Positions 11,149 through 62,579 of a stretch of DNA of 64,000 nt are shown piece by piece. Origin of the DNA: Bradyrhizobium sp. CSA207 (GTDB lineage Bacteria > Pseudomonadota > Alphaproteobacteria > Rhizobiales > Xanthobacteraceae); contig NZ_JAACFT010000004.1 in assembly GCF_029051685.1 (NCBI RefSeq), positions 186,001 to 250,000 on the forward strand. Reading direction: 5' to 3'. Numbering within the stretch: the first letter of the stretch is position 1; every line of letters begins with the position of its first letter. The position numbers and the translations under genes are program-made. The notes beneath the pieces are model-generated. The model was not told where the DNA came from. It did no database searches and saw nothing but the letters and a program-made list of their open reading frames with translations.

Positions 11149-11152
11149 CGCC

Positions 11153-25540: not shown

Positions 25541-25591
25541 CGGACAGGGTCCTTCGGCTTGACAAGTGGCGGCCGTGGGCAAATGGTGGGC

Positions 25592-25791: not shown

Positions 25792-25895
25792 AAGTTTTGG
25801 ACCGGCGGACGGGGTGTTCCGCGACGGGGAAGCGGGCCTTCGCAAGAATGGTTCGCGCGCCTCATCGCCTCCCGCTGTTTATCCTGGAAGAGGCG

Positions 25896-32383: not shown

Positions 32384-32385
32384 CG

Positions 32386-45094: not shown

Positions 45095-45106
45095 GGCGTT
45101 GAACAC

Positions 45107-47182: not shown

Positions 47183-49192
47183 ATGAGCGATTCCGCCAGT
47201 CATTGGGAAGTCGGCACCGATATCGGTGGCACCTTTACCGACATCATCGCGATCCGGCGCGAGTCCGCGGAGACGCGGATCGCGAAGGTGCCGTCGCGGC
47301 CGCAGGCGCCCGTTCAAGCGATGCTCGAGGCCATCGAGGCCGTGGGCCTGCGCAAAAGCGAGGTCAAGCGCTTCGTGCACGGCACCACGCGCGTGACCAA
47401 CGCCATCGTCGAGAATCGGCTGCCGAAGGTGGCGCTGGTCGCGACCGACGGATTTGCCGATGTGCTCGAGATCGCGCGCTACCGCCGGCGCGATCTCTAT
47501 CGCCTCGACATTCCGCCGAAATCGCCGCCGCTGGTGCCGCCTGAACTCTGCTTCGGGCTCGCCGAGCGTCTCGATCATGAAGGGTGGGTGCTGAAGGCGT
47601 TGGATGAAGCGGAGATCGAGCGGCTGGTCCGGTGGCTGAAGCAGACCGGTGTCCAGAGCGTCGCAGTGGCCCTGCTTCATGCCTATGCCAACCCGCTGCA
47701 CGAAAAGATTCTCGGCGAGCGCCTCAAGGACGTCGTCGCCCACGTCTCGCTGTCGCACGAGGTCAATCCCGAGGCGCGCGAATACGAACGGACCTCGGCG
47801 ACCGTGTTCAACGCGGCGGCGATGCCGATCGCGGTCGAATACCTCAGCGAATTGGAGCAGCGGCTGCCGATTGGCCCCGGCTTGCAGGTATTTCATTCGG
47901 CCGGCGCGATGGTCCCGATCTCGGCGGTGAAGAGGCGGCCACTGGTGATGGCGATGTCGGGGCCGGCCGCCGGCGTATCGGCCTCCGTCAGCATCGCGCG
48001 CCAGCTCGGCGCCTCGCGGGTGCTGACCTTCGACATGGGCGGCACCACGACGGACGTCTGCCTGATCGTCGACGGCCAGGCCGAGATGACGGATGGCCGG
48101 ATGCTCGGCGACAAGCCGCTGCGTCAGCCGATGCTCGCGGTTCACTCGATCGGGGCGGGCGGCGGATCGATCGTGCGCAACGGGCCCGGCGGCCTGACGG
48201 TCGGGCCGGAGAGCGCCGGCTCGGAGCCGGGGCCGGCCTGCTATGGCCGAGGCGGCATCGAGCCTACCATCACCGACGCCAACGCCGTGCTGGGCTATCT
48301 CAATCCGGAAACCCGGCTTGGCGATCGCATCGGCATCAATGTCGAGGCCGCCGCGCGCGTCATCGAACCGATCGCGCAAGCCTTGGGGCTGAGCATGACC
48401 GAAACGGCGCTCGGCATCATCAAGGTCGCGAACGCGACGATGGCCCGTGCGCTCCGCCGCGTCACGGTCGAGCGCGGCATCGACGGGCGCGATTGCACGC
48501 TGCTCGCCTTTGGTGGCGGCGGTCCGATGCATGCCGCGGGCCTTGCCGATCTCTACGGCATCGAATCAATCGTGGTGCCGAGCGCGTCGAGCGCGTTTTC
48601 CGCGCTGGGCTGTCTCACCGCCGATTTCAGCTTCCTCCAGCAGCAGACCTTGCGGGCGGCGCTCGACAGCATCGATCTCGGCCGCGTTTCGGAGCGGATC
48701 GCGACGCTGATCGGCGATGCCTCGGCGCCACTGATCGCCAATGGCGTCGCGCAAGCCGAGATCGAGGTCGAACTGGTCGCCCTGATGCGCTACGCCGCGC
48801 AGAACGATGCCATTCCGGTGCCGCTCGCGCTGCCGCTCGACGTGACGCGGCTGAAGACGGATTTTCTGGCGCGGCATCACGAGCTCTTCGGCTATGCGAC
48901 GAGCGAGAGCTGCGTCATCGAATCGGTGCGGGTGCAGGCGCGCCGCCCGTCGACGACCGTTGTGAGCCGGCCGGCGACTGCGCTCCGGGCCGTGTCCACC
49001 GGTCGCCGCATCTGCTCGTTCGACGGCTGCCATGAGATTGCGACCGCGATCGTCGATCGCGCCGCGGTGTCCGATGTGGTCAGTGGTCCCGCCATCATCG
49101 AAGACGCCTGGTCGACCGTCGTGGTGCCGCCCGGCTGGCAGGCAAGGCCGGACGCCGCCGGCAACCTGTTCCTGACCCGGGGGACGCCATGA
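47183..49192 (+). CDS. hyuA: Hydantoinase/oxoprolinase subunit A (HyuA)
   Basis: The 669-aa protein is a full-length HyuA-type ATPase subunit. Its N-terminal loop is VGTDIGGTFTDIIAI, then FVHGTTRVTNAIVENRLPKVAL, the second loop LTFDMGGTTTDVCLI, and the C-terminal GGGGPMHAAGLADLYGI. With HyuB it would hydrolyse a cyclic imide, hydantoin or lactam at the expense of ATP, as 5-oxoprolinase, N-methylhydantoinase and caprolactamase do. It overlaps hyuB by 4 nt and is the first gene of the 47-53 kb operon. The specific ring it opens cannot be read from sequence. Confidence 0.92.
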   Translation: MSDSASHWEVGTDIGGTFTDIIAIRRESAETRIAKVPSRPQAPVQAMLEAIEAVGLRKSEVKRFVHGTTRVTNAIVENRLPKVALVATDGFADVLEIARYRRRDLYRLDIPPKSPPLVPPELCFGLAERLDHEGWVLKALDEAEIERLVRWLKQTGVQSVAVALLHAYANPLHEKILGERLKDVVAHVSLSHEVNPEAREYERTSATVFNAAAMPIAVEYLSELEQRLPIGPGLQVFHSAGAMVPISAVKRRPLVMAMSGPAAGVSASVSIARQLGASRVLTFDMGGTTTDVCLIVDGQAEMTDGRMLGDKPLRQPMLAVHSIGAGGGSIVRNGPGGLTVGPESAGSEPGPACYGRGGIEPTITDANAVLGYLNPETRLGDRIGINVEAAARVIEPIAQALGLSMTETALGIIKVANATMARALRRVTVERGIDGRDCTLLAFGGGGPMHAAGLADLYGIESIVVPSASSAFSALGCLTADFSFLQQQTLRAALDSIDLGRVSERIATLIGDASAPLIANGVAQAEIEVELVALMRYAAQNDAIPVPLALPLDVTRLKTDFLARHHELFGYATSESCVIESVRVQARRPSTTVVSRPATALRAVSTGRRICSFDGCHEIATAIVDRAAVSDVVSGPAIIEDAWSTVVVPPGWQARPDAAGNLFLTRGTP

Positions 49193-50769
49193 AGCTCGAC
49201 CCCTTCGTCGTCGAAGTCATCAGGCACGGGTTCTCCGCCGCGGCCGAGGAGATGAGCTTGGTGATGACGCGCTCGGCGCGCTCGCCGCTGCTGCGCGAGG
49301 CCGGCGATCTGTCGTCGGCGATCACGGACGCTCGCGGCGGCCTGGTCGGGCAGGGCCGCGATATCCCGATCCATCTTGGCGCGATGGCCTATACAATCCC
49401 CGAATTGCTGAAGGTGGTGCCGGCCGACAGCCTGAACGACGGCGACGTGCTGATCTACAATCTCGGCGCGCTCGGCGGCAATCACCTCAACGACGTCAAG
49501 GTCGTGCGTCCCGTCTTCGTCGACGGCGAGATCGTGGCGTTCGCGGTCAGCCTTGCGCACTGGCCGGATATCGGCGGCACCTGGCCCGGCAGCTATTTTG
49601 CCAAAGCCATCGACACGTTCCAGGAGGCGATGCGCATTCCGCCGGTGCTGATCGCGACCGCCGCCGGCGTCAGCGCGCCCATCATTCAGCTCCTCAAGGC
49701 CAATGTCAGGGATCCCGAGGCCTGCGAGGGCGATCTGCTCGCCCAGATTGCGGCGACCAAGGCCGGCGAACGGCGCATCATCGAGCTCTGCCGCATGCAC
49801 GGCAAGCCGGTCTTCACGGCGACGCAGGCGCGCCTGCACGATCTGTCGGAGATCGAGATGCGCGAGGCGCTTCGCGCGCTACCGGACGGCGTCTATGAAG
49901 GCGAGGATTATCTCGACGACGGCGGCGTGGACAATGCGCCGGCGCGCATTCACGTCAAGATCACCATCGCCGGCGATGAGGCGACCTTCGACCTGTCCGG
50001 AAGCTGCGACCGCGTTTCCAATTTCTGCAACACGACGCCGTTCATGGCACGTTCCGCCGTTGCCTACGCCGCGCGCATCATGAGCGGGCGCGACATGCAG
50101 CAGAACATGGGCGCGCTGCGGCCTTTGACCATCATCACGCGCCCGGGCTCGATCCTGGAGCCGGGCTGGATGGCTTCCGTTGCCGCCGGCAATCACGAGA
50201 CGTCCATGCGCATCGTCGATGCGATTTTCCGTGCCATGCAGGACACGGTTCCCCGGCGCTTGTCGGCGGGCGGGGCAACCACAGCGGGCGTGCTGTTCTT
50301 TGCCGAACCGCGGCAGAACGGTTCATGGCGGATGCTCTACGAAGTCCACGGCGGCGGCGAAGGCGCGCGCCATAATCGTCCGGGTATAGCGGCGACGCGG
50401 GTGCATCTGTCCAACACCTCGAACACGCCGGTTGAGGTGATCGAGGCGAGCTACGCGATCCGCGTCGAGCAACAGGCTATCCGCCGGGATTCGGGTGGCG
50501 CGGGCAGATATCGCGGCGGCGACGGCGTAGTTCGCGCCTACCGCATCCTGGCACCCTCGATGCACCTGACCACCTGCATCGAGCGCATGGTGATTCCGCC
50601 GTACGGCATGCAGGGCGGGCAGCCCGGCAAGCCCTGCCGCATCTCGCTGATCCGGCAGGGTAAGAACATCGCAATCGACGGCAAGTCGAACCTGGTGCTG
50701 CAACAGGGCGATCTCGTCACCGTCGAGACCTGCGGCGGCGGCGGCTACGGCGCCGAGGCGGCGGAATGA
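49189..50769 (+). CDS. hyuB: Hydantoinase B/oxoprolinase subunit (HyuB)
   Basis: The 526-aa protein begins KLDPFVVEVIRHGFSAAAEEM, the HyuB hallmark, and continues LVMTRSARSPLLREAGDLSSAITDARGGLVGQG-type sequence, of which MTRSARSPLLREAGDLS is diagnostic. DGDVLIYN and GGNHLNDVKVVRPVF supply metal-ligand candidates, including the Asn-His pair. It forms the hydrolytic partner of HyuA. Start codon overlaps the hyuA stop; the aminotransferase gene follows after 10 bp. Confidence 0.93.
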   Translation: MKLDPFVVEVIRHGFSAAAEEMSLVMTRSARSPLLREAGDLSSAITDARGGLVGQGRDIPIHLGAMAYTIPELLKVVPADSLNDGDVLIYNLGALGGNHLNDVKVVRPVFVDGEIVAFAVSLAHWPDIGGTWPGSYFAKAIDTFQEAMRIPPVLIATAAGVSAPIIQLLKANVRDPEACEGDLLAQIAATKAGERRIIELCRMHGKPVFTATQARLHDLSEIEMREALRALPDGVYEGEDYLDDGGVDNAPARIHVKITIAGDEATFDLSGSCDRVSNFCNTTPFMARSAVAYAARIMSGRDMQQNMGALRPLTIITRPGSILEPGWMASVAAGNHETSMRIVDAIFRAMQDTVPRRLSAGGATTAGVLFFAEPRQNGSWRMLYEVHGGGEGARHNRPGIAATRVHLSNTSNTPVEVIEASYAIRVEQQAIRRDSGGAGRYRGGDGVVRAYRILAPSMHLTTCIERMVIPPYGMQGGQPGKPCRISLIRQGKNIAIDGKSNLVLQQGDLVTVETCGGGGYGAEAAE

Positions 50770-50779
50770 AGGGACTGCG

Positions 50780-52075
50780 ATGAGCAATCTGCTGCGAACC
50801 GGATTGAATGCGGGCGAAGCCGCGCCAATGACCGTGGTCGGCGGCGAGGGCGTCTACTTCCATCTTGCGGACGGCCGCCGGCTGATCGACGGCAGCAACA
50901 CCGGCGGCGGACTCGGACATCGTCATCCTGCGATGGTGGAGGCGATCCGCCGCGCGGCGGATACGCCGGTCGTGAACGAAGGCTGGACCTGGGTCGGCCG
51001 CGAGCAGGCCGCCGACGATTTGATGGCCATCGCGTTCAAGGGCGAAGAGGATTGGGTCGGCGCGGTCCGCTTCTGTATCAGCGGCAGCGAGGCCAACGAT
51101 ATGGCGCTGTCGCTCTGCCAGGCGTTGACGCAGCGGTCTGCGCTTGCGACGCGCGAGCGCGCCTATCACGGCCTCACCGGCCTGTCGCGCAGCATGACGG
51201 TGCAGCCGCAATGGCACGGTGGGCTTGCGGTTCACTCCGGCGGATCGCAGCGGCCATCACCGATGGCGCCGGTGCGGGTATTGCCGGCGCCGGCCGGCGC
51301 GATCTATGGCGCGCCGGCCAACAATGCGCCTCCGGGCGAATATCTCGCGGACGCCACGCGCCTGCTCTCGGACACGGCGGCGACGATCATCGACTACACC
51401 CAAGGCGGCATCTATTACGACGGCGCCTATCAGGACGAGGTGGCGCGCTGCGCGCGCAAGGCCGGCTCGTACTGGATCGCAGACGAAGTCGTCACCGGCG
51501 CAGGCCGCGCGGGCCGCTGGTTCGCATTCCAGGGGGCTGCGAGCCGTCCCGACATCGTGACCCTCGGAAAATCGCTCGGCGGCGGCGCGGCTGCGGTCGC
51601 CGCGGTCGTGGTGTCGAAGGCGATCGTCGAGCGGCTCAACGGCACGAGCTGGCAGAATTACGGCACGCTACGCGGCCATCCCATCAGCATGGCCGCCGTC
51701 AGCGCTTACCTGAAGGTCGTCACCGAAGAAGAGATTCTGGAGCACGTGCGCAGCCTCGAAAAGCTGTTCATCTGCCGCCTGCTCGACATCGCGCAAAAAC
51801 ATCCGAGCGTGCAGCGCGTGGCGGGGCAGGGGCTGCACTGGACGGTCGAACTGCATGGTCCGGATTGGCGCTCCTGGCACGCCGACACGAGCGAGGTGCC
51901 GATCGCCTCGCGCGTGGCGACGCGGGCGCTGGAGGCTGGCGCGGTGATCGGGACCAGCGGCGAACAGACCTCGCTGTTCCTTGCGCCGCCGCTCGTGATC
52001 TCCGAGCATGAGACCGAACGGCTTCTGGATGCGCTCGACCACGGCCTGGACATTGCCGACGAGGAGCACGGGTGA
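50780..52075 (+). CDS. Class III aminotransferase (glutamate-1-semialdehyde aminomutase-like)
   Basis: The 431-aa PLP enzyme shows DGSNTGGGLGHRHPAMVEAI near the N-terminus, the Gly-rich cofactor loop FCISGSEANDMALSL, the aromatic stacking region ERAYHGLTG, and the PLP-lysine segment VTLGKSLGGGAAAVAAVV. Class III members transfer amino groups from omega-amino acids or amines, or move them within a molecule. After ring opening by HyuAB, an omega-amino acid would be a natural substrate (compare caprolactam degradation, where 6-aminocaproate is transaminated). It is not the heme-pathway hemL, as context and several motifs differ. Confidence 0.88.
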   Translation: MSNLLRTGLNAGEAAPMTVVGGEGVYFHLADGRRLIDGSNTGGGLGHRHPAMVEAIRRAADTPVVNEGWTWVGREQAADDLMAIAFKGEEDWVGAVRFCISGSEANDMALSLCQALTQRSALATRERAYHGLTGLSRSMTVQPQWHGGLAVHSGGSQRPSPMAPVRVLPAPAGAIYGAPANNAPPGEYLADATRLLSDTAATIIDYTQGGIYYDGAYQDEVARCARKAGSYWIADEVVTGAGRAGRWFAFQGAASRPDIVTLGKSLGGGAAAVAAVVVSKAIVERLNGTSWQNYGTLRGHPISMAAVSAYLKVVTEEEILEHVRSLEKLFICRLLDIAQKHPSVQRVAGQGLHWTVELHGPDWRSWHADTSEVPIASRVATRALEAGAVIGTSGEQTSLFLAPPLVISEHETERLLDALDHGLDIADEEHG

Positions 52076-53754
52076 GCGCCGACCACGCCCCAGCCTATCG
52101 GTCACCGCCGTGGCCGGCGGATGAACCCTGGCATCTCGCGATGCCCGAGGGAACGCTCTACGACGCGCTGGCGCGCGCGGCACATGATCGGCCGACGCAT
52201 CCGGCAACAATATTTTACGGAGCGAGCCTCAGCTATGCCGAGCTGCGTGACCGCATCGACGCCTTGGCCGGCTTTCTGCAAAGCGCTTGCGGCGTGAGGC
52301 GCGGCGACAGGGTCATGATCGCGCTCCAGAATTCGCCGCAATATGTCATCGCCTATTATGCGGTGATGCGGGCGGATGCTGTGATCGTGCCAGTCAACCC
52401 CATGAACAAGACGGCCGAGATCGCGTATCTCGCCGCTGATAGCGGCGCCAAGGTCGCGATCATCGGCAGCGAGCTGATCGAGATGTTTGCGCCGCTGGTG
52501 GGCGAAGCCATCGGGCATGCAATCGTCGCGCAATATCGCGGCGAGGTGCCCGCCGCCACGCCCTATACGTTGCCGACCTGCGTGACCGAAGCGCCGTCGG
52601 AGCTGCCGTCGTTGCCGGGCTGGCATTCCTGGTCATCCGCGATCGCGCAGGGCTTGCGGCCTGCTGCGATGAGCGCTGCGGCCGACGATCTGATGATCCT
52701 GCCCTACACGTCGGGGACAACAGGCAAACCAAAGGCCTGCATGCATAGCCATCGCAATGCGCTGTTTACCGCGGTGTTGCAGGCCCGCTGGTACGGCCTC
52801 GGCGGTGACGACGTGATGACGGGCTTCATGCCGCTGTTTCACGTTGCGGGCATGCAGGGTTCGATGAATGCGGCTGTTGTCGCCGGCGCCACGCTGCTGC
52901 TGATGGCGCGCTGGGACAAGGATTTGCTGCCGGATCTGTTCGAAACCTACGGCGTGACGTTCTGGAACGCGGCGCCGACCATGATTGTCGACGTGCTCGC
53001 GAGCGCCCGATTCCGAGACCGGTGTTTTGCCAGGCTCAAGGTGCTGACCGGTGGCGGCGCCGCGATGCCGACCGCGGTTGCTGAGCGTCTGAAGGGACGG
53101 TTCGGCCTCGACTTTGTCGAGGGCTACGGCATGACCGAGACGATGTCGCCGACGCACCTCAACCCGATGGCCGCGCCGAAGCGGCAATGCCTCGGCATTG
53201 CCGTGCATGAGACCGACGCAAGGATTATCGATCCGGAGAGCCGGATCGAGCTCGACGACAACGTCGTCGGCGAGATCGTCGTGCATGGTCCGCAGGTGTT
53301 GCAGGGCTACTGGAACAGGCCGCGGGCTGATGCCGAGGCGTTCATCGAGATTGACGGCAAGCGGTTCCTGCGCACCGGCGATCTCGGCTATCGCGACGCC
53401 GACGGATATTTCTTCGCGGTCGACCGATTGAAGCGCATGATCAATGTCAGCGGCTTCAAGGTGTGGCCCGCCGAGGTCGAGGCGGCGATGTACCATCACC
53501 GCGCCATCCGGGAGTGCTGTATCATCTCGGCGCCGGATGGCTACCGCGGCGAGACCGTCAAGGCGCTGGTGGTGCTGGATGAGGCCGCGCGGGCGACGAC
53601 GTCGCCGGACGATGTCATAGATTGGGCGCGTGGCGCGATGGCGAGCTACAAGGCGCCGCGCGCCGTGGTCTTCGTCGAGTCTTTGCCGCGGACTGCCAGC
53701 AACAAGATCAATTGGCGGCTGTTGCAGGACGCCGAATGGGGCCGGACGGCATGA
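52072..53754 (+). CDS. AMP-forming acyl-CoA synthetase
   Basis: The 560-aa enzyme starts at GTG 52072 (GTGA overlap with the aminotransferase). Adenylate-forming motifs are complete: P-loop LPYTSGTTGKPKACMH, GYGMTETMSPTH, RTGDLGYRDADGYFFAVDRLKRMI, and the C-terminal catalytic lysine in LPRTASNKINWRLL. It would activate a carboxylic acid as its CoA thioester. In the operon it probably acts on the acid left after ring opening and deamination. It resembles medium/long-chain fatty acyl-CoA and benzoate-type ligases; substrate unknown. Confidence 0.9.
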   Translation: MSADHAPAYRSPPWPADEPWHLAMPEGTLYDALARAAHDRPTHPATIFYGASLSYAELRDRIDALAGFLQSACGVRRGDRVMIALQNSPQYVIAYYAVMRADAVIVPVNPMNKTAEIAYLAADSGAKVAIIGSELIEMFAPLVGEAIGHAIVAQYRGEVPAATPYTLPTCVTEAPSELPSLPGWHSWSSAIAQGLRPAAMSAAADDLMILPYTSGTTGKPKACMHSHRNALFTAVLQARWYGLGGDDVMTGFMPLFHVAGMQGSMNAAVVAGATLLLMARWDKDLLPDLFETYGVTFWNAAPTMIVDVLASARFRDRCFARLKVLTGGGAAMPTAVAERLKGRFGLDFVEGYGMTETMSPTHLNPMAAPKRQCLGIAVHETDARIIDPESRIELDDNVVGEIVVHGPQVLQGYWNRPRADAEAFIEIDGKRFLRTGDLGYRDADGYFFAVDRLKRMINVSGFKVWPAEVEAAMYHHRAIRECCIISAPDGYRGETVKALVVLDEAARATTSPDDVIDWARGAMASYKAPRAVVFVESLPRTASNKINWRLLQDAEWGRTA

Positions 53755-53854
53755 AAGCCCGGCTGGAAACACCTGACGGGACTGCGTTATGCTGCCCGCG
53801 CCGACAAATCGTTGAAGCTATGGCTTCGTTTAAGGGATCACCAGGAAACCACTG

Positions 53855-54787
53855 ATGCGTATTGTCAATGTTGCCGCCGCCCAGATGGGCCCGATCCAGA
53901 AAGCCGACAGCCGCGAGGCCGTGGTCAGGCGCATGATCGCGCTGATGGACGAAGCCAAGGCCAAGGGGGCCGATCTGATCGTCTATCCGGAACTCGCGCT
54001 CACCACGTTCTTTCCGCGCTGGTACGTGGAGGACCGGGCCGAGTTCGACGTCTGGTTCGAGCGCGAGATGCCGAACGCGGCGACCAAGCCGCTGTTCGAG
54101 CGTGCGGCGCAGCACCAGATGGCGATGAATTTCGGCTATGCGGAGCTGACGCCCGACGGTCACCACTTCAACACCTCGATCCTCACCGACAAGTCCGGCA
54201 AGATCGTCGGAAAATATCGCAAGATCCACCTGCCGGGTCATGTGGAGTTCGACGCCAAGCGTTCGCATCAGCATCTGGAGAAGCGCTATTTCGAACCGGG
54301 TGATCTCGGCTTCAACGTTTGGCGCGCGCTGGGCGGCATCATCGGCATGGCCGTCTGCAACGACCGGCGCTGGCCCGAGACCTATCGCGTCATGGGCTTG
54401 CAGGGCGTCGAGATGGTGCTGATCGGCTACAACACACCGTCCGTCAACGCGGAGAAGAGTGATGAGGGCATCGAGAAGCGACTGTTTCACAACCGCCTCT
54501 CCGTGCAGGCCGGCGCCTATCAGAATGCGACCTGGGTCGTCGCCGTGGCCAAGGCCGGCGTCGAGGACGGACACGCGCTGTTTGGCGGCAGCCTGATCGT
54601 CGATCCGGACGGCGAGATCGTCGCCGAGGCCAAGACGGAAGACGACGAGCTGCTGGTTCACCCCTGTGATCTCGACGCGACCACATTCGGCAAGACCACG
54701 ATTTTCAATTTCGCCGAGCATCGCCGTATCGAGCATTATGGGCTGATCGCCAGCCAAACCGGCGCCGTGCCGCCGCCGGAAGTGTGA
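53855..54787 (+). CDS. N-carbamoyl-D-amino acid hydrolase (D-carbamoylase)
   Basis: The 310-aa nitrilase-fold amidase closely matches Agrobacterium-type D-carbamoylases in length and motifs. The catalytic triad is Glu46 (VYPELALTTFFPRWY), Lys123 (GKYRKIHLPGH) and Cys168 (MAVCNDRRWPETYR). It converts N-carbamoyl-D-amino acids to D-amino acids, CO2 and ammonia, the step after D-hydantoinase (56177). A 100-bp gap separates it from the acyl-CoA synthetase, so it may have its own promoter. The flavin reductase follows within 5 bp. Confidence 0.93.
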   Translation: MRIVNVAAAQMGPIQKADSREAVVRRMIALMDEAKAKGADLIVYPELALTTFFPRWYVEDRAEFDVWFEREMPNAATKPLFERAAQHQMAMNFGYAELTPDGHHFNTSILTDKSGKIVGKYRKIHLPGHVEFDAKRSHQHLEKRYFEPGDLGFNVWRALGGIIGMAVCNDRRWPETYRVMGLQGVEMVLIGYNTPSVNAEKSDEGIEKRLFHNRLSVQAGAYQNATWVVAVAKAGVEDGHALFGGSLIVDPDGEIVAEAKTEDDELLVHPCDLDATTFGKTTIFNFAEHRRIEHYGLIASQTGAVPPPEV

Positions 54788-54792
54788 GGCCG

Positions 54793-55461
54793 ATGGCAGA
54801 CAAGGACACATCCGGCATTTCGCTGCGCGAACTCGATCCGCGCGACCGCTACAAGCTGCTGTGCGGCGTGGTGGTGCCGCGGCCGATCGCGCTGGTGACG
54901 ACGCTGGACGAGAACGGAGCGGTCAACGCAGCTCCCTTCAGCTTCTTCAATGTCTTCTCCGAGAGTCCGGCGTTGATCGTGCTCGGCCTTCAGCACAAGC
55001 CGGATCACAGCCCGAAGGACACGACCCGCAACATCCATCGCGATGGCGAGTTCGTAGTTCACATGGTGGACGAGGCGCTGTCGGCGGCGATGAACGACTG
55101 CGCGGTCGATTTCCCGTCCGGTGACAGCGAGGTCGCGGCGACCGGTCTCGCGACGCTTGCCTCGGTCGACGTGAAGGTGCCGCGACTCGCCGCGGCGCCG
55201 TTCGCGCTCGAATGCCGGCGCCAAATCGTGCTCAACTTTTCGCCCGATCGCGAGCTGCTGGTTGGGGAGGTGCTGCGGGTTCACGCCCGTGACGGCCTCG
55301 TCGACGAGGCGAACATGTATGTCGATCTCGAAGCCTACCGGCCGATCGGCCGCATGTTCGGCAATCTCTACACGACGCAGCGGGATATTTTCGCCCTCGT
55401 GCGCGAGAGCCATTCGCAATGGCTCGCGCGCCGGGACGCCACAGAATTGAAGGACGCCTAG
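54793..55461 (+). CDS. Flavin reductase family protein
   Basis: The 222-aa protein starts at ATG 54793; GTG 54784, overlapping the carbamoylase stop, is an alternative. It has the flavin-reductase-like FMN-binding split barrel: YKLLCGVVVPRPIALVTTLDENG and NAAPFSFFNVFSESPALI, then NIHRDGEFVVHMVDEAL. Such proteins supply reduced flavin to two-component monooxygenases or act as oxidoreductases. A flavin monooxygenase-like gene lies at 59385 in the same cluster, a possible partner (inference). Its 3' end overlaps the convergent racemase gene by 4 bp. Confidence 0.88.
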   Translation: MADKDTSGISLRELDPRDRYKLLCGVVVPRPIALVTTLDENGAVNAAPFSFFNVFSESPALIVLGLQHKPDHSPKDTTRNIHRDGEFVVHMVDEALSAAMNDCAVDFPSGDSEVAATGLATLASVDVKVPRLAAAPFALECRRQIVLNFSPDRELLVGEVLRVHARDGLVDEANMYVDLEAYRPIGRMFGNLYTTQRDIFALVRESHSQWLARRDATELKDA

Positions 55462-56120
55462 TGGCGCGAGAACTGCACCGTACCGAGCGCCATCGTGACG
55501 GCCGCCTGCGTCGGGTCGATCACGGCAATGCCGAGCGCATCTTCGAGCGGACGGCGGTGGCGCGCCATGCCGGCGCAACCCATCACGATGGCGCGGGCGC
55601 CGTCCTCGTCGCGCAGTGCACGGCCGATGTCGATCATCTTGGCCAGCGTTCCTTCGCCCGAAGCGGTTTCGGCGACGCTCATGTTGAGCGGCCGCTCGCC
55701 GGCAAGCCGTTCGGTCAGGCCCATCTGTCTGAGATAACGCATGTGCCGCGGGATCGAACGCTGCGCGATGGCGATCACGCCAAAGGTTTCGGCGCGGGCC
55801 AGCGCCGTCAGCACGCCGCACTCGGCGATGCCGAACACGGGGCGGTCGGTGCCTTCACGGCAGACCTGAAGCCCGGGATCGCTGTAACAGGCGATAATGA
55901 AGGCGGCGGAACGGTTGTCGCTTTCGACCAAGCGGCGCAGCGGCATCGCGACGCTGTCGACGTCGGCCTGGCTCTCGATGCCGAACGGACCCTCGGCCAG
56001 CGTTTGGCAGACCACCTCGGGTCCGCCGTCAAAATCGAGCGGCCTCAGCGCGTCCTCCAGCCCCTGCGTAACCGTGGGGTTGGAGTTCGGATTGATGACG
56101 AGAATGCGCGGCCGGGACAT
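55458..56120 (-). CDS. hyuE: Asp/Glu/hydantoin racemase (HyuE-like)
   Basis: The 220-aa protein begins RILVINPNSNPTVTQGL, the signature of hydantoin racemases. The two catalytic cysteines are Cys78 in IIACYSDPGL and Cys182 in VMGCAGMA, one per lobe. It would interconvert D- and L-5-substituted hydantoins so that a D-specific hydantoinase and carbamoylase can use the whole racemate. It is the only minus-strand gene of the cluster, divergent from the hydantoinase gene with a 56-bp gap and convergent with the flavin reductase. Confidence 0.9.
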   Translation of the reverse strand: MSRPRILVINPNSNPTVTQGLEDALRPLDFDGGPEVVCQTLAEGPFGIESQADVDSVAMPLRRLVESDNRSAAFIIACYSDPGLQVCREGTDRPVFGIAECGVLTALARAETFGVIAIAQRSIPRHMRYLRQMGLTERLAGERPLNMSVAETASGEGTLAKMIDIGRALRDEDGARAIVMGCAGMARHRRPLEDALGIAVIDPTQAAVTMALGTVQFSRH

Positions 56121-56176
56121 GATGGTCTTCCTGCGAATGGGCGATCATTTGTCTTGAGCCTATCACGGAGTGCCAC

Positions 56177-57646
56177 ATGACTGAACCCACCTACGACCTG
56201 ATCATCCGCGGCGGACGCGTCGCCACCACGACCGACGTGTTCGAGGCCGATGTCGCCATCTCCGGCGAGACCATCGCAGCTGTCGGCCGAGGGCTTCCGG
56301 CTGCAAAGCGCGAGATCGACGCCCGCGGCAAGCTGGTGTTGCCCGGCGGTGTCGACAGCCACGCCCATATCGAGCAATTGTCCGCGGCCGGCATCATGAA
56401 TGCCGACACCTTCGAGAGCGCGACCGTGTCGGCGGCATTCGGCGGCACCACCACGGTGATTCCGTTTGCCGCCCAGCATGTCGGCATGAAGCTGCCGCAG
56501 GTGGTGGAGGATTATCACGCGCTGGCGAAGAAGGGCGCCGTGATCGACTACGCCTTTCACATGATCATTGCGGACGCGACCAGGGAGACGGTCGAGGAGC
56601 ACATTCCGGCACTGGTGAAGCAGGGTCACGCGTCGATCAAGATATTCATGACCTACGACCGGCTCAAGGTCGACGACGAGCCGCTGCTCGACATCCTGCT
56701 TGCTGCGCGTCAATCGGGCGCGATGCTGTGTGCCCACGCCGAGAACCATGGCATCATCGCCTGGATGGTGAAGCGCCTGCTCGCGCGCGGCTACACGCTG
56801 CCGAAATACCACGCCGTCAGCCACGCCCGGGTGTCGGAGGCGGAAGCCTTCACCCGGCTGATCGGCATGGCGGCGCTGATCGACCAGCCGATCATGATCT
56901 TCCACGTCTCGACGGCCGAAGGCGCCAGGGTGATCCGGGATGCGCGCGGGCAGGGGCTCAAGGTGTTTGCCGAGACCTGTCCGCAATATCTGTTCCTCAC
57001 CGCCGGCGATCTCGACAAGCCCGGCGCCGACGGTGCGAAGTGGATGTGCAGCCCGCCGCCGCGGACGCATTCGGATCAGGAGGCGCTTTGGCAGGCACTG
57101 TCGCTCGGCGATCTCCAGACCGTCTCGTCGGATCACGCACCGTATCGTTTCGACGAGACCGGCAAGCTGCGCGCCGGGCCCAATCCCAACTTCAAGCAGG
57201 TCGCAAACGGCCTGCCGGGCCTTGAAGTGCGGCTGCCGTTGCTGTTCGACGCGATGGTGTCGAAGGGGCGGCTGGGCTTGGAAAAATTCGTCGAGCTGAC
57301 CGCGACGGCGCCGGCAAAAATCTACAATTTGCATCCACGTAAGGGTTCAGTCGCGGTTGGTGCGGATGCCGACATCGCGATCTGGGATCCGAATCGTGAG
57401 GTCACGATCGCCGACGAAATGATGCACGACCTCACCGGCTACACACCGTTCGCAGGCCGCAAGTTGAAGGGCTGGCCGGTAACCGTGCTCTCGCGCGGCC
57501 GCGTCATCGTCGATGGCAACAAATGCCTCGCGGATGCGGGCAGCGGCAAGTTCCTCGCCCGTACCGGCGGCGAGGCAGCCAAGCCGACCGGCCGCCTCGT
57601 CGCCGACATGGATCCGGAACGGAACTTTGGAGCGAAGCTGCTGTGA
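56177..57646 (+). CDS. hydA: Dihydropyrimidinase / D-hydantoinase
   Basis: The 489-aa cyclic amidohydrolase has the metal site residues expected for the family: His62 and His64 in GVDSHAHIEQ, the carbamylated Lys155 in HASIKIFMTYDRLK, a His in LCAHAENHG, IFHVSTAEG, and the Asp in SSDHAPYRF. Family enzymes open dihydropyrimidines or 5-substituted hydantoins to N-carbamoyl amino acids, which the D-carbamoylase at 53855 would cleave. HxH is preceded by DS rather than the more common DxHTH pattern, a small deviation. The cluster thus has a metal-dependent hydantoinase as well as the ATP-dependent HyuAB. Confidence 0.93.
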   Translation: MTEPTYDLIIRGGRVATTTDVFEADVAISGETIAAVGRGLPAAKREIDARGKLVLPGGVDSHAHIEQLSAAGIMNADTFESATVSAAFGGTTTVIPFAAQHVGMKLPQVVEDYHALAKKGAVIDYAFHMIIADATRETVEEHIPALVKQGHASIKIFMTYDRLKVDDEPLLDILLAARQSGAMLCAHAENHGIIAWMVKRLLARGYTLPKYHAVSHARVSEAEAFTRLIGMAALIDQPIMIFHVSTAEGARVIRDARGQGLKVFAETCPQYLFLTAGDLDKPGADGAKWMCSPPPRTHSDQEALWQALSLGDLQTVSSDHAPYRFDETGKLRAGPNPNFKQVANGLPGLEVRLPLLFDAMVSKGRLGLEKFVELTATAPAKIYNLHPRKGSVAVGADADIAIWDPNREVTIADEMMHDLTGYTPFAGRKLKGWPVTVLSRGRVIVDGNKCLADAGSGKFLARTGGEAAKPTGRLVADMDPERNFGAKLL

Positions 57647-57662
57647 CGGGCGGCCCCACCAG

Positions 57663-58637
57663 ATGAAGATCGTCATCTTCGGCGGCACCGGCTTTGTCGG
57701 CCTCAATCTCGCGGAGGTGCTGCTCGCGCGCGGCCATGACGTGACGCTGTATGATCTTGCACCGCTCCCGCCGGCGGCGCGTCGCTCGCTGGCTGATGAC
57801 GGAGGACGGCTCCGAGCCGTCCAGGGGGAGATCAACGACGCGAAAACTATCGACGCCCTCATTGCCGAGGGCTGTGATGCGATCGTGCTGGGCGCGGCGA
57901 TCACTGCCGGCGATGATCTCGAGAGGGCGTCGGCCTCGCGCGTTCTCGAGATCAACGTGATGGCCCAGATACCGATCCTGCAAGCGGCGATCCGCCATGG
58001 CGTTCGCCGTGTCGTCAATCTCTCGTCGGCATCGGCCTATGGCGCCGCGGGCCAGCGTCATCAGGTGCTGGACGAGGATACACCCTGCGATCCGGTGTCG
58101 TTCTATGCCATCAGCAAGTTCACTTCAGAGCGATCGGTGGCGCGGCATGCCGAACTACTCAGCGGCGATTTCCTCAGCGTGCGGTTGAGCGCCGTGTTCG
58201 GTCCGTGGGAGCGGATCGGCACGGTGCGCGATACGCCGAGCCTGCAGTTCCAGATTCTGGCCGCGTTCGGTCGCGGCGAGCCGGCGATCATGCCGGATCC
58301 AGGCATCAAGGATTGGATCTACGCCGTCGATGCCGCCGAGGCAGTCGCGGTGCTGATCGAAGCCGAGCGTCCCCGCCGTCGGCTCTACAACATCTCCGGC
58401 GGTGCGGCATGGCCGGCGCTGCAATGGGGCGAGGCCTTTGCGGCGTTGCATCCGGGCCTGCAATGCCGGCTGGCGGCGCCGGACGAAAAGACCATCATCA
58501 AGCTGCATGGGCCGGATCGCGCGCCGCTGTCGGTCGCGCGGATGGCAGAGGAGTTCGGCTGGCGCGCGCGCTTCGGCTGTACGGAGTCTGCGGCGGCGAT
58601 GAGCGCTTGGTGGATGCAGCACCGGGAAGGGATCTGA
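57663..58637 (+). CDS. NAD(P)-dependent epimerase/dehydratase (extended SDR)
   Basis: The 324-aa protein starts at ATG 57663 (MKIVIFGGTGFVGLNLAEVL), giving the GGTGFVG nucleotide loop at the very N-terminus. The catalytic Ser and YxxxK are in VNLSSASAYG and SFYAISKFTSE, and RLSAVFGPWER follows. Extended SDRs reduce, oxidise or epimerise sugars and carbonyl compounds. Its substrate in this cluster is unknown. It lies 16 bp after the hydantoinase and 1 bp before the next SDR. Confidence 0.88.
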   Translation: MKIVIFGGTGFVGLNLAEVLLARGHDVTLYDLAPLPPAARRSLADDGGRLRAVQGEINDAKTIDALIAEGCDAIVLGAAITAGDDLERASASRVLEINVMAQIPILQAAIRHGVRRVVNLSSASAYGAAGQRHQVLDEDTPCDPVSFYAISKFTSERSVARHAELLSGDFLSVRLSAVFGPWERIGTVRDTPSLQFQILAAFGRGEPAIMPDPGIKDWIYAVDAAEAVAVLIEAERPRRRLYNISGGAAWPALQWGEAFAALHPGLQCRLAAPDEKTIIKLHGPDRAPLSVARMAEEFGWRARFGCTESAAAMSAWWMQHREGI

Positions 58638-58638
58638 C

Positions 58639-59388
58639 ATGCGGCTGCAGGGGCGCACGGCCATCATCACCGGGGCGGGCTCGGGCATCGGCCGCGCCAG
58701 CGCAAAGCTGTTCGCAGAGGAAGGCGCGCGTCTCGCTCTGGTCGATCGCGATGCTGCGGGCCTCCAGGAGACGCTAAGCCTCGTGCGTGAAGCAACCACG
58801 CACGTCGGTGATGTCGGTGAGGCAGGCTTTGCCGAGACCGTCGCAAGCGACATGGTGGCGCGACACGGCCGGCTCGATATCCTGATGACTGCGGCAGGCT
58901 TCTCCTGCGGCGGCACGGTGCTGACCACGGATCCGGCAGACTGGGACGCAGTCTTTCGCACCAATGTCGGCGGCACCTGGCTGTGGGCGCGGGCGGCCGT
59001 GCCGCAGATGCAGCAGCAGAACAGCGGGTCGATCATCACGCTGGCGTCTCAGCTCGCCGTCGCCGGCGGCAAGGGCAACAGCGCCTATATCGCAGCCAAG
59101 GGCGCGATCGTCAGCCTGACGCGGACGATGGCTGTGGATTTCGCCGCGGACGGCATTCGCGTCAACGCGATTGCCCCGGGTGCGATCGACACGCCGATGC
59201 TTCGCCGCAGCTTTGCGCGTCATGCCAATGCGGAAGAGGTGCGTGAAGCCTCTCGCAACCGCCACGCCATGAAGCGGTTCGGCCAGGCGGAGGAGATCGC
59301 GCAGGCCGCGCTGCATCTGGCGAGCGATGCGTCTTCGTTCACAACAGGTACCGTGATGGTGGTCGACGGCGGGTGGCTCGCCGCATGA
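58639..59388 (+). CDS. Short-chain dehydrogenase/reductase
   Basis: The 249-aa classical SDR has cofactor loop ITGAGSGIGRASAKLF, the NAG-equivalent MTAAGFSCGG, catalytic Ser in ITLASQLAVAGG, and YIAAKGAIVSL with Tyr and Lys. The C-terminal LASDASSFTTGTVMVVDGGWLAA is typical. It would oxidise an alcohol or reduce a carbonyl with NAD(P), perhaps on the aldehyde or alcohol arising after the aminotransferase or monooxygenase steps (inference). Its stop overlaps the monooxygenase start by 4 nt. Confidence 0.92.
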   Translation: MRLQGRTAIITGAGSGIGRASAKLFAEEGARLALVDRDAAGLQETLSLVREATTHVGDVGEAGFAETVASDMVARHGRLDILMTAAGFSCGGTVLTTDPADWDAVFRTNVGGTWLWARAAVPQMQQQNSGSIITLASQLAVAGGKGNSAYIAAKGAIVSLTRTMAVDFAADGIRVNAIAPGAIDTPMLRRSFARHANAEEVREASRNRHAMKRFGQAEEIAQAALHLASDASSFTTGTVMVVDGGWLAA

Positions 59389-60821
59389 GTGACGCGCTGA
59401 CACAACTCGAAGCCGATGTTCACGCCGATCTTGCCATGATCGCGCATCCCGGCGCCGCGTGGCTCCCTCCAAAACCGGGGCCGGACGGCAAGCCGGCGCT
59501 GGATGTTCTCGTCGTCGGCGCCGGCCAATCCGGCATCGCGATCGGCTTCGGGTTGATGCGCTCCCGCGTCGGCAACATCCTGCTGCTCGACAAGGCCGAG
59601 GAGGGCATGGAGGGCCCGTGGCTCACCTATGCGCGCATGCCGACGCTGCGCAGCCCGAAGGACTATACCGGCCCCGATCTCGATATCCCGAGCCTGACCT
59701 ACCAGTCCTGGCATGAAGCCCGCTTTGGCCGGGAAAGCTGGCAGACGCTCGACCTGATCCCGCGCGGCCATTGGGCGGACTATCTGCTCTGGCTGCGGCG
59801 CACGATCGGAGTGCCGGTGCGCAACGGCTGCGAGCTTCTCGAGATTGCGCCGGCCGCCGATGGCCTGCTCGCCGCACAGGTGAAGCGTGCCGATGGCGTC
59901 GAGACGCTCTATGCGCGCAAGATCGTGCTGGCGACGGGACAGGAAGGGATGGGAAGCTGGATCATTCCGGAGCCGCTTCGAGACCTGCCATCAACTTCGG
60001 TCGCAACCGTCGCCGACGATATCGACTTCAAAGGGCTTCGCGGCAAGCGCGTCGTCGTGATTGGCGCCGGCGCATCCGCGTTCGACAATGCGGCAACTGC
60101 GCTCGAGGCGGGCGCCGCCGAAGTGCACCTGCTCTGCCGCCGGCCGCGGATCCAGGTGATCCAGCCCTATCGCTGGCTGACCTTTCGCGGCTTCCTGCGC
60201 CATCTCAGCGATCTCGATGATGCCTGGCGCTGGCGCTTCATGCGCACCATCCTCGAAATGCGGGAGGGATTTCCGCAGCCGACCTATGACCGTTGCGCGC
60301 GCCATGGCAATTTCACGCTGCACGAAGGCGCGCCGGTCGAGGCTGCGCGCCGGACCGATCACGGCATCGAATTGCAAACGCCGCGGGGCCTCGTCACGGC
60401 CGATTTCGTCATCTGCGGCACCGGCATCGACATGAACTTTGTCGGGCGCAGTGAACTGTCCAGATTTGCCGGCAACATCGCGACCTGGGCCGACCGTTAC
60501 CAGCCGCCGGAGGGCGAGCGCAACGCGCGGCTCGGCCGCTTTCCCTATCTCGCCGACGATTATGCCTTCACCGAGCGCGTGCCGGGCGAGACGCCGTGGA
60601 TATCGGACATCCATCTCTTCGCGATCGCCTCAACCATGAGCTTCGGTCCCTCGGGATCGTCGATCAACGCAATGACGACTGCCGTCCCCAAGCTGGTCCA
60701 CGGCCTGACGCGCGGCCTGTTCCGCGCCGATGTCGGGCATCACTGGGCTTCGCTGAGCGCCTATGACGTGCCGCAGGCCGTGGTCACGCGTTCGGCAGAA
60801 AATTTGGAGGAATCCCGATGA
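59385..60821 (+). CDS. Flavin-containing monooxygenase-like NAD(P)/FAD oxidoreductase
   Basis: The 478-aa protein starts at ATG 59385, coupled to the SDR. Two dinucleotide-binding loops are clear: VLVVGAGQSGIAIGFG (FAD, about 44-60) and VVVIGAGASAFDNAATAL (NADPH, about 225-245). ATG-like FVICGTGIDMNF near the C-terminus also fits. This layout is that of class B flavoprotein monooxygenases or related FAD oxidoreductases, although I do not see the canonical FxGxxxHxxxW Baeyer-Villiger fingerprint. It could hydroxylate or oxidise the pathway substrate; specificity unknown. An ABC importer operon follows after 107 bp. Confidence 0.85.
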   Translation: MSDALTQLEADVHADLAMIAHPGAAWLPPKPGPDGKPALDVLVVGAGQSGIAIGFGLMRSRVGNILLLDKAEEGMEGPWLTYARMPTLRSPKDYTGPDLDIPSLTYQSWHEARFGRESWQTLDLIPRGHWADYLLWLRRTIGVPVRNGCELLEIAPAADGLLAAQVKRADGVETLYARKIVLATGQEGMGSWIIPEPLRDLPSTSVATVADDIDFKGLRGKRVVVIGAGASAFDNAATALEAGAAEVHLLCRRPRIQVIQPYRWLTFRGFLRHLSDLDDAWRWRFMRTILEMREGFPQPTYDRCARHGNFTLHEGAPVEAARRTDHGIELQTPRGLVTADFVICGTGIDMNFVGRSELSRFAGNIATWADRYQPPEGERNARLGRFPYLADDYAFTERVPGETPWISDIHLFAIASTMSFGPSGSSINAMTTAVPKLVHGLTRGLFRADVGHHWASLSAYDVPQAVVTRSAENLEESR

Positions 60822-60928: not shown

Positions 60929-62548
60929 ATGCGTTTCGCATCATTCAGGCTGGCGTCTTGTGTCGTCGCCACCGCCGCATTGCTGCTCGTCGCCAACGCG
61001 CCTGCGCAGGCGCAAACCAGGGCGGAGACGCTGCGCTATGTGACCGGCGCATCCGTCAACACGCTCGATCCCAACATTCCCGGCTCGACCCGCGAGTCCT
61101 TTGCGCTGAGCATGAGCACCTATGACCGGCTGGTGGCATTTGGCCGCAAGCAACTCAACGGCAAATGGGTGTTCGATCTCGACAAGATCACGGGCGAGCT
61201 CGCGGAATCCTACGACGTCAGTCCCGATGGCCTGAAGCTCACCTTCCGCCTGCGCAAGGATGCCAAATTCCAGGACGGCTCGCCGGTGACGGCCGAGGAC
61301 GTGAAATGGTCGCTCGACCGCTGCGTCACCGCGCCGATCCTCGGCAAGGCGCAGCTCCTGACGGGATCGTTGACCTCCGCCGACCAATTCAAGGTGATCG
61401 ATCCCGTCACCATCGAGGTGACGTTGCCGAAGCCCGACAAGCTGGCGCTGCCCAATCTTGCCACCGTCTATCCGATGATCATCAACTCCAAGGTGGCGAA
61501 GGAGCATGCGACGACGGATGATCCCTGGGCCACCGCCTGGCTGAAGGAGCATGCCGCCGGCAGCGGCGCTTATGTGGTCGAGACCTTCAAGCCGGGCGAG
61601 CAGGTCATCCTCAAGCGCAGCGAGGACTGGAATCGCGGCTCGCCCGACAAGCCGGCCTTCTTCAAGCGCGTGATCGTGCAGTCTGTGCCGGAGCCCGCGA
61701 CCCGCGCCAACCTGGTTGAGCGCGGCGATGCCGATCTGGTGCTCGATCTCCAGGCCAGCGACGTGCAGTCGCTCGAAGCCAAGGGCAAGCTCAAGGTGGT
61801 CTCCACGCCGCAATACAATGCGATCACGTTCGTGTCGATGAACAACCAGATCCCGCCCTTCGACAACGTCAACGTCCGCCGCGCCATCGCCTTCGCGCTG
61901 CCCTATGACGACATGTTCAAGGCCGCATTGTTCGGCCGCGGCTCGCCGCTGTTCGGGGCGACCTGGCCGGACGGCAAGCCGCTGACCGGCATCTATCCAT
62001 TCCAGGCGCCGGTGAAGATCGATCTCGACAAGGCGCGGGAATATCTCAAGGCCGCGGGCCTTCCCGAGGGCTTCTCGACCACCTTCAGCTTCAACGTCGG
62101 TCAGGCCTCGACTGCGGAGCCGATGGCGGCCCTCGTGAAGGAGTCGCTTGCCAAGATCGGGATCAAGGTCGACATCCAGAAGCTGCCGGATGCGCAGATG
62201 TCGACGCAGATCAACGAGAAGAAGCTGCCCTTGTTCACCGAAGGCATCGTCGCCTGGCTGCCTTCGACGGATTATTTCTACCGCAACTTCTACACCGGCA
62301 ATCAGCGCTGGAACTACAGCTCGATCAACAATCCTGAATTGGCTGCGATCGCGCAGGAAGCCCGCTTCGAGCCGGACAAGGCCAAGTACGAGGAGGACGG
62401 CCGCAAGCTCAATGCGATCCACTTCAGCGAGATGCCGCAGATCCCGCTGTGGCAGCCCAACCAGGATGCAGTGATGGCCTCCTCGATCGAGGGCTACACC
62501 TACGAATTTCACCGCCAGGTCGACTACCGCGATGTCAGCCGCAAGTGA
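60929..62548 (+). CDS. ABC transporter substrate-binding protein, family 5 (DppA-like)
   Basis: The 539-aa periplasmic protein is read from ATG 60929 (MRFASFRLASCVVATAALLL), which gives a proper signal peptide ending APAQAQ; a longer open frame to 60818 would bury it. Family-5 features are SYDVSPDGLKLTFRLRKDAKF, DGSPVTAEDVKWSLDR and NVNVRRAIAFALPYDDMFKA. It probably recognises the compound degraded by the preceding cluster, given its position between the catabolic genes and two permeases. Related to, but clearly different from, the truncated binding protein at the left window edge. Confidence 0.93.
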   Translation: MRFASFRLASCVVATAALLLVANAPAQAQTRAETLRYVTGASVNTLDPNIPGSTRESFALSMSTYDRLVAFGRKQLNGKWVFDLDKITGELAESYDVSPDGLKLTFRLRKDAKFQDGSPVTAEDVKWSLDRCVTAPILGKAQLLTGSLTSADQFKVIDPVTIEVTLPKPDKLALPNLATVYPMIINSKVAKEHATTDDPWATAWLKEHAAGSGAYVVETFKPGEQVILKRSEDWNRGSPDKPAFFKRVIVQSVPEPATRANLVERGDADLVLDLQASDVQSLEAKGKLKVVSTPQYNAITFVSMNNQIPPFDNVNVRRAIAFALPYDDMFKAALFGRGSPLFGATWPDGKPLTGIYPFQAPVKIDLDKAREYLKAAGLPEGFSTTFSFNVGQASTAEPMAALVKESLAKIGIKVDIQKLPDAQMSTQINEKKLPLFTEGIVAWLPSTDYFYRNFYTGNQRWNYSSINNPELAAIAQEARFEPDKAKYEEDGRKLNAIHFSEMPQIPLWQPNQDAVMASSIEGYTYEFHRQVDYRDVSRK

Positions 62549-62579
62549 CATCCGCAAGCGCAAGGAGCTCTTAGAGTTG

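Follow-up and report, generated by a model that had tools for sequence, protein, structure and literature searches.

A window of 64,000 nucleotides from Bradyrhizobium sp. CSA207 carries a conserved island that encodes predicted ring-opening enzymes of two unrelated types, an ATP-dependent and a metal-dependent hydantoinase, and that, as judged from its sequence and those of its relatives, is a mosaic of three modules. Module A comprises hyuA, hyuB and a class III aminotransferase (AT3), joined in some loci by an acyl-CoA ligase; module B comprises a D-carbamoylase, a flavin-reductase-like protein, a racemase and a D-hydantoinase; and module C comprises epimerase-like, SDR and FMO-like proteins together with a dpp-type ABC importer. 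Each enzyme belongs to a known type, while the combination appears to be new, no description of it having been found. We lean towards reading the island as a Bradyrhizobium uptake and degradation system for a hydantoin- or lactam-type compound, in which the three modules would cooperate.

Gene content of the island

The 11 genes named in a preliminary description of this DNA are all intact open frames between positions 47183 and 60821. The conserved block extends beyond 60821 with a dpp-type binding protein and then a permease; the second permease and the ATPase of this importer follow past the window end, and a second dpp-type importer lies further on (locus L055). Between hyuA and the first permease there are 12 gene junctions, five of which overlap by 4 bp with the chosen starts; one of these five joins convergent genes. 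The features are:

47183–49192, plus strand: hyuA, ATP-dependent hydantoinase/oxoprolinase alpha subunit (module A; Pfam PF05378 and PF01968)
49189–50769, plus strand: hyuB, metal-site subunit (module A; PF02538, 556 bits)
50780–52075, plus strand: class III PLP aminotransferase AT3 (module A; PF00202; D235, K264)
52072–53754, plus strand: acyl-CoA ligase, PRK08314 subfamily (optional in module A; 800 bits, cut-off 705)
53855–54787, plus strand: N-carbamoyl-D-amino-acid hydrolase (module B; phmmer E 6.7e-121 to the solved 6lei; E46, K123, C168)
54784–55461, plus strand: FMN flavin-reductase-like protein (module B; PF01613)
55458–56120, minus strand: hydantoin/Asp-Glu racemase (module B; PF01177, 180 bits; C78, C182)
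56177–57646, plus strand: metal-dependent D-hydantoinase/dihydropyrimidinase (module B; TIGR02033, PRK13404)
57663–58637, plus strand: NAD-dependent epimerase/dehydratase-like protein (module C; PF01370, 129 bits)
58639–59388, plus strand: SDR oxidoreductase (module C; PF13561; PRK06138, 379 bits, cut-off 312)
59385–60821, alternative start 59373, plus strand: FMO/N-hydroxylase-like FAD protein (module C; PF13738 and PF13434, above cut-off)
60980–62548, alternative start 60818, plus strand: dpp-type solute-binding protein, family 5 (module C; PF00496, 290 bits)
62532–63611, plus strand: dpp-type permease (module C; PF00528)

In module A, HyuA contains the phosphate-site motifs DIGGTFTD (D13) and DMGGTTTD (D284), aligned with those of 6yra_A, while HyuB residues D40, H99, D102 and H124 align with 6yra_B. 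The roles of the phosphate-site motifs are taken from PMC8453981, and the numbering of 6yra_B agrees with residues D41/H99/D102/H124 of CapB given there. By these phosphate motifs and the Asp-His-Asp-His metal site, HyuAB is probably of the ATP-dependent hydantoinase/oxoprolinase type, and ring hydrolysis is predicted. Residues D235 and K264 of AT3 are invariant in 10 aligned sequences.

In module B, the carbamoylase is of the D-alpha-amino-acid type, scoring about 400 bits versus 34 bits for beta-ureidopropionase. The D-hydantoinase scores 651 bits with TIGR02033 (cut-off 393) and 780 bits with PRK13404 (cut-off 647), and residues H62, H64, K155, H187, H243 and D319 are present; the matches of the racemase include hydantoin and allantoin racemases. 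Thus all three families of the racemase/D-hydantoinase/D-carbamoylase trio proposed in the preliminary description are present with every checked residue kept, and these residues we take to be the catalytic ones of their families. Family membership and conserved residues suggest that the trio would convert racemic hydantoins to D-amino acids. The flavin-reductase-like protein has as its best solved relatives a 2-nitrobenzoate nitroreductase (4z85, 138 bits) and component B of NTA monooxygenase (3bpk, 127 bits). As a separate observation, a table in PMC6321122 places an Asp/Glu/hydantoin racemase, Blr3294, among senescing-nodule genes; in the accessible part of that source no tie to the island was found.

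In module C, the epimerase-like protein is distant from solved members of its family (best 68 bits). A structural model of the FMO-like protein, of moderate confidence (mean pLDDT 66), has ornithine and putrescine N-hydroxylases as its fold matches, with a TM score of about 0.5. At that pLDDT the fold match is weak evidence, and a resemblance to N-hydroxylases is proposed tentatively. The flavin oxygenase suggested earlier stands as an intact gene, but ring oxygenation is not established, because the model likens the protein to N-hydroxylases.

Conservation and reassortment of the modules

A search with the epimerase in Bradyrhizobium returned 70 loci, of which 7 were incomplete and 63 full-length loci were counted. 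The D-carbamoylase, racemase, SDR, binding protein and first permease occur in all 63; the D-hydantoinase, FMO-like protein, second permease and ATPase in 62 each; the flavin reductase in 58; and hyuA, hyuB and AT3 in 49 each. The loci were recruited through a gene of module C, so the conservation of that module is partly built into these counts. Recruitment of in-genus loci through AT3 gave the block from hyuA to the first permease in 9/9 cases, two of them without the ligase and one with a split ligase. Furthermore, dN/dS ranges from 0.025 to 0.17 in every comparison with three relatives (12 of 13 genes for L089, which has no ligase gene, and 13 of 13 for both L093 and L115), indicating purifying selection on the island genes. 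Since the order recurs across Bradyrhizobium and the dN/dS values are this low, the sequences indicate that the gene cluster is real and conserved and that its order is above chance; the conserved gene neighbourhood that the preliminary description had proposed to look for does exist.

The acyl-CoA ligase is found in 31 of the 63 full-length loci; it is absent from 18 of the 49 that have AT3 and also from L089, which matched best when loci were scanned for with the epimerase. The ligase is therefore optional. CoA activation, put forward earlier as part of the route, accordingly has an intact gene here but one that many loci lack.

The modules also occur apart and reshuffled. For 14 of the 63 full-length loci, module A is not encoded within 10 kb, and outside Bradyrhizobium 4 of 14 genomes with module A lack the C epimerase; neither therefore requires the other. 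In a genome of another genus (G095; L160, L189), B and C are adjacent in swapped order. Module C lies beside another hydantoinase (47–48% identical) and a racemase or racemase-like protein (47–49%) at L174 and L176, with a D-amino-acid transaminase above its cut-off nearby at L174, and adjoins another hydantoinase (44–47%) and a racemase or racemase-like protein at L163, L168–L170 and L177. At L164, L166 and L167, no hydantoinase is found among the called neighbours of C.

Separability raises the alternative that two independent catabolic units came to lie side by side by insertion, B/C serving hydantoins or dihydropyrimidines and A an unrelated lactam or amide. In keeping with it, other genera as well as G729 and G732 carry A and B/C at separate places, B/C stands without adjacent A in the 14 Bradyrhizobium loci above, and A often has its own regulator: several relatives encode, upstream of hyuA, a MocR-type protein (GntR and aminotransferase domains). 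A tblastn search of the window for this regulator gave chance-level matches only, and a close copy is missing from the genome as a whole (best match 35%). Against it, unlinked A and C co-occur. Among 391 genomes of the family, AT3 is found in 45, the C epimerase in 65 and both in 41; outside Bradyrhizobium, the C epimerase is found in 10 of 14 AT3 genomes versus 6 of 255 others. These counts ignore kinship and are inflated by shared ancestry, most cases falling in Bradyrhizobium and one other genus. Within that limit, the pairing of two hydantoinase systems noted earlier holds in genomes even where the two are far apart.

The transporter genes beside module A argue further against independence. 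Among genomes that have both A and the C epimerase, but in which A is not joined to B in the manner usual for Bradyrhizobium, all 11 judged (9 outside Bradyrhizobium, G729 and G732) have an orphan binding protein ahead of hyuA, and beside A they encode neither a permease nor an ATPase of that importer; the C permeases are encoded elsewhere in the genome. Where A occurs without the C epimerase, the order is binding protein-permease-permease-ATPase-hyuA in 3/3 genomes judged (from two genera; two more, G244 and G283, stop at contig ends), and these permeases are 73–82% identical to those of C. The fused A-B/C loci of Bradyrhizobium lack a binding protein of A's own. This pattern predicts that two separately encoded modules use one permease set, and we regard independent units as unlikely.

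Comparison with described systems

Part of the arrangement has been seen before. PMC3546935 already noted the carbamoylase/racemase/hydantoinase order in Bradyrhizobium: in BTAi1 and ORS278, as here, the D-carbamoylase is upstream of the D-hydantoinase with an oppositely oriented racemase between them, and the D-type hyu cluster of Aminobacter likewise has the D-carbamoylase upstream. The terms 'hyuA', 'flavin', 'oxidoreductase' and 'aminotransferase' do not appear in the text of that paper, and in its accessible part an ABC transporter is named solely beside the Aminobacter DSM24755 gene, unlike the island with its importer. The accessible part of PMC4016543 contains nothing on the island arrangement. 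A plasmid of Variovorax paradoxus (L029) carries a B-like trio (carbamoylase 53%, hydantoinase 52% and racemase 42% identical) adjoining an ABC importer that is of amino-acid type by annotation, whereas that of the island is of dpp type; in the 30.6-kb stretch, no module A or C gene was found except an SDR of 34%. Carriage of the island on plasmids was considered and rejected: a megablast search with the cluster returned two plasmid records, each covering only part of the carbamoylase. FMO relatives on plasmids amount to 337 records, the best 20 of these being 42–47% identical; of two inspected, one is in a different context and one is in an unannotated stretch with the FMO alone.

For HyuAB, the best-scoring solved relative is N-methylhydantoinase (7hk5 and others; 354 bits for HyuA, 220 bits for HyuB), whose chain is a 1288-residue fusion, whereas the island has two genes and a HyuB of 526 residues. 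The preliminary description had likened HyuAB plus aminotransferase to caprolactam degradation. The Pseudomonas jessenii cluster (PMC6061476, PMC8453981) shares with the island an ATP-dependent two-subunit enzyme of CapAB type, with its ATP and metal residues, and a class III aminotransferase; the island differs in having the D-hyu trio and the dpp importer. We rejected a caprolactam-type pathway: the NCBIfam equivalog models for CapAB score 437 and 241 bits versus cut-offs of 1000 each, AT3 is under the cut-off of every curated family (best 25 of 69), and among the cluster proteins scanned there is no aldehyde dehydrogenase or 6-oxohexanoate-dehydrogenase-type protein.

Instead of a hydrolase, HyuAB could also be an enzyme akin to ketone carboxylases whose product goes to the acyl-CoA ligase, as happens when acetophenone is degraded. 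Acetophenone carboxylase belongs to the same superfamily, and its apc operon contains a benzoylacetate-CoA ligase gene (PMC5214803), just as an acyl-CoA ligase gene lies downstream of hyuAB. However, no genes for the gamma and alpha' subunits of acetophenone/acetone carboxylases were found in the island operon, caprolactamase scores better (437 bits for CapA versus 242 for ApcC) and the ligase is absent from 18 of the 49 full-length loci that have AT3, all of which makes this reading very improbable.

A third alternative is nucleobase salvage, in which the substrates are pyrimidines or purines in reduced or oxidised form (dihydropyrimidines, hydantoins resembling allantoin) and the D-hydantoinase acts as a dihydropyrimidinase or in an allantoinase-like manner. 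The hydantoinase family includes dihydropyrimidinases, and genes of uracil-catabolism (URC) type (GTP_CH_N, DUF1688, UPRTase) lie beside B/C in 8 of the 70 loci and also at L159, L162, L172 (scanned), L173, L216 and L218; some loci have HIU-hydrolase-like and weakly PuuE-like neighbours. Yet the PuuE and HIU-hydrolase scores are under cut-off, no module A gene is found in the 8 URC loci (3 incomplete; G729 and G732 carry A elsewhere), and the carbamoylase beside the D-hydantoinase/dihydropyrimidinase is of the D-alpha type in place of the beta-ureidopropionase type of the Pyd pathway. We consider nucleobase salvage improbable.

The preliminary description could match the whole to no described pathway, and we likewise found none onto which the whole island can be mapped. 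It had also allowed that the gene sets might belong to separate known pathways; this is right in that the modules are separable and occur apart, but no described pathway was found that accounts for the whole. Among the titles and abstract beginnings listed, mostly from outside the subscription literature, none describes the combination.

Proposed route and biological meaning

Families, checked residues, gene order, co-occurrence and the pattern of transporter genes are read directly from the sequences. In the uptake and degradation system that we favour, we infer every substrate, the order of the steps and the roles of the importer, HyuAB, AT3, the ligase and the redox proteins. The dpp-type ABC importer of module C would take the compound up. 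The racemase, D-hydantoinase and D-carbamoylase of module B would presumably, from what is known of their families, convert either enantiomer of a 5-substituted hydantoin to a D-amino acid, CO2 and ammonia. HyuAB, with ATP, may open a ring untouched by the metal enzyme, either that of the opposite enantiomer or one of lactam or imide type; AT3 would deaminate the released amino acid, and the ligase, where present, would activate the product. The epimerase-like, SDR, FMO-like and flavin-reductase-like proteins may modify the side chain or handle an N-oxygenated group.

A stronger version, which we offer tentatively and with some doubt, is that this is one undescribed pathway in which a single natural compound, once imported, is attacked by both the ATP-dependent and the metal-dependent hydantoinase, the binding protein of A docking on the permeases of C. 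The larger N-heterocycle suggested earlier as the substrate is not supported. PMC3852281, in its accessible part, leaves diketopiperazine-cleaving enzymes open, and diketopiperazines as the substrate are a speculation. If true, a single shared pathway would give the D-hydantoinase/D-carbamoylase pair a natural role.

D-hydantoinases and D-carbamoylases are in industrial use. The natural function of hydantoinases is called still unclear in PMC3546935. The conserved neighbourhood, with its importer, aminotransferase and redox enzymes in tens of Bradyrhizobium genomes, supplies named genes and candidate substrates for that role, and the island thereby offers a concrete route to asking what D-hydantoinases do in nature.

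Gene content and residues of the island

All eleven genes that the preliminary description placed at 47183-60821 are intact and belong to the families it named, and the gene block extends past 60821 into a dpp-type ABC importer, which runs from 60980 to beyond the window end (L055, the extended locus of the island). The genes comprise module A (hyuA, hyuB and the class III aminotransferase AT3, sometimes with an acyl-CoA ligase), module B (D-carbamoylase, flavin-reductase-like protein, racemase and D-hydantoinase) and module C (epimerase-like, SDR and FMO-like proteins with the importer). With the chosen start codons, 4-bp overlaps occur at 5 of 12 gene junctions, one of them convergent. The dN/dS values range from 0.025 to 0.17 against three relatives, the ligase being comparable in two of the three. 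The checked residues are all present, and we take those of the D-carbamoylase, D-hydantoinase, racemase and aminotransferase to be catalytic.

Residues checked in proteins of the island
HyuA: D13, D284; present
HyuB: D40, H99, D102, H124; present, corresponding to the metal site of CapB
D-carbamoylase: E46, K123, C168; present
D-hydantoinase: H62, H64, K155, H187, H243, D319; present
Racemase: C78, C182; present
Aminotransferase AT3: D235, K264; present

The reference residues for HyuA and HyuB are those of CapAB, the caprolactamase of Pseudomonas jessenii (PMC8453981). That the island's HyuAB is a carboxylase is highly improbable. The individual parts of the island are of known kinds, and the order D-carbamoylase/racemase/D-hydantoinase in Bradyrhizobium has already been reported (PMC3546935). 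The literature searched contained no description of the module B trio with HyuAB-aminotransferase and the epimerase-SDR-FMO-importer core as a joint island.

The window's genome (151 contigs, 8.4 Mb) contains a second D-carbamoylase-like gene (54%; L212), with a racemase and a polysaccharide-deacetylase-family protein a few genes away, and in L211 a 37% hydantoinase adjoins a 42% binding protein; from these contexts, hydantoin-type genes and this importer type repeatedly meet. In L213 (G000:C61), at another place in this genome where gene names were mostly assigned by eye, a 47% hydantoinase adjoins an ABC importer, a GntR-like gene and a racemase-like gene (34%). A D-hydantoinase relative (30%) at L206 (G000:C79:11488-12837) has one in-frame TAG stop. 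Elsewhere in the window, a cluster separate from the island occupies positions 4719-12807 (minus strand); it encodes a further HyuA-like protein of 517 aa, an IclR regulator, an ABC importer made up of ATPase, binding protein and permease, and S-Me-THD-type and AroM proteins. The region at ~23447-38204 looks like a cobalamin synthesis region: the proteins scanned there include CobN, a tetrapyrrole methylase and two proteins of the CobB/CobQ type.

Conservation and co-occurrence of the modules

A scan of named genomes with the epimerase of module C gave 70 loci, labelled Bradyrhizobium (68), Bradyrhizobiaceae (1) and 'Frankia sp. RB7' (1); exclusion of seven ended by contig edges left a full-length set of 63. 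Genes in fetched loci were called by a codon-usage script, and presence was decided by set identity thresholds. The epimerase's own 63/63 holds by construction, since the loci were retrieved via it. None of the 63 loci lacks the D-carbamoylase, racemase, SDR, binding protein or first permease. The D-hydantoinase, FMO, second permease and ATPase each occur in 62, the flavin reductase in 58, the binding protein of a second importer in 50, hyuA, hyuB and AT3 in 49 each, and the acyl-CoA ligase in 31. Module A is an attachment to the island, and its ligase is optional.

A TonB-dependent receptor, then a PepSY transmembrane protein, lie directly upstream of hyuA (42743-46576), and PepSY lies ≤10 kb from the epimerase in 12 of the 63 loci. 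L117, titled Frankia sp. RB7, contains the Bradyrhizobium island with genes 81-96% identical, and its label is probably wrong. At L040:6175-7823 (Bradyrhizobium) the acyl-CoA ligase was matched as two overlapping pieces, called as two frames.

Among 296 family genomes, AT3 is found in 24, the epimerase in 31 and both in 20 (Fisher p 1.4e-19, kinship ignored). Among 391 the counts are 45, 65 and 41, which is no independent test because the samples overlap. AT3 genomes also carry the epimerase in 31/31 cases in Bradyrhizobium and 10/14 in others. The two genes lie ~7 kb or less apart in 28 of the 31 Bradyrhizobium genomes; they are separated by ~50 kb in G729 and ~1.8 Mb in G732, and stand on separate contigs in G725, yet there module A is joined to B (L220). 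In a phylum sample, AT3 was found at E 1e-120 in 5/398 genomes (own included) and 2/212 genera. That A and B/C are mere neighbours is an unlikely, though serious, alternative; we lean towards the island being one joint system.

Modules in other gene contexts

URC-type genes adjoin B/C in 8 of the 70 loci, in none of which a module A gene was seen (three of the eight end early), and occur also in L159, L162, L172, L173, L216 and L218. Those in L172 belong to the families GTP_CH_N, DUF1688 and UPRTase; genes of this uracil-catabolism type carry the names URC1/URC4. That the island itself serves nucleobase salvage is improbable.

In other genera, module A is preceded by a regulator of the MocR type and by a binding protein; a Lumazine_bd_2 protein and the ligase often follow it, and in L044, L045, L047 and L049 these are joined by an OB-fold protein plus a thiolase-like one. 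Modules B and C are adjacent in swapped order in G095 (L160, L189), where RuBisCO-like, two-domain SBD_N/NBD_C and PGDH_C-domain proteins adjoin module C (L160:5577-9720). Module C has other hydantoinases and a racemase, or a protein resembling one, beside it in L174, L176, L163, L168-L170 and L177, and a 45% hydantoinase in L165; its called neighbours include no hydantoinase in L164, L166 and L167. Between the racemase and module C, L174 has a D-amino-acid transaminase that belongs to another class and scores over its cut-off; a protein of the same cluster occupies this place in L176. By analogy, AT3 may have the corresponding role in Bradyrhizobium.

Possible division of the transporter between modules A and C

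We compared genomes that have both module A and the epimerase but lack the A-B fusion usual in Bradyrhizobium. In such genomes, module A is accompanied by a binding protein (61-63% identical to that of module C), without the permease or ATPase of that importer.

Genomes with the epimerase and a module A binding protein without permease or ATPase
G066, G095, G169, G180 (all modules together), G189, G088, G026, G124, G107, G729, G732

In genomes without the epimerase (G073, G145, G075), a full importer accompanies module A; G244 and G283, which stop at contig ends, were excluded from this judgement. The pattern has a Fisher p of 0.0045 for the first nine versus three genomes, and G729 and G732, examined after it had been seen in other genera, both fit. 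No description of it was found in the literature searched. As the three epimerase-free genomes represent two genera, the pattern is suggestive, rather than proof, of a link between modules A and C.
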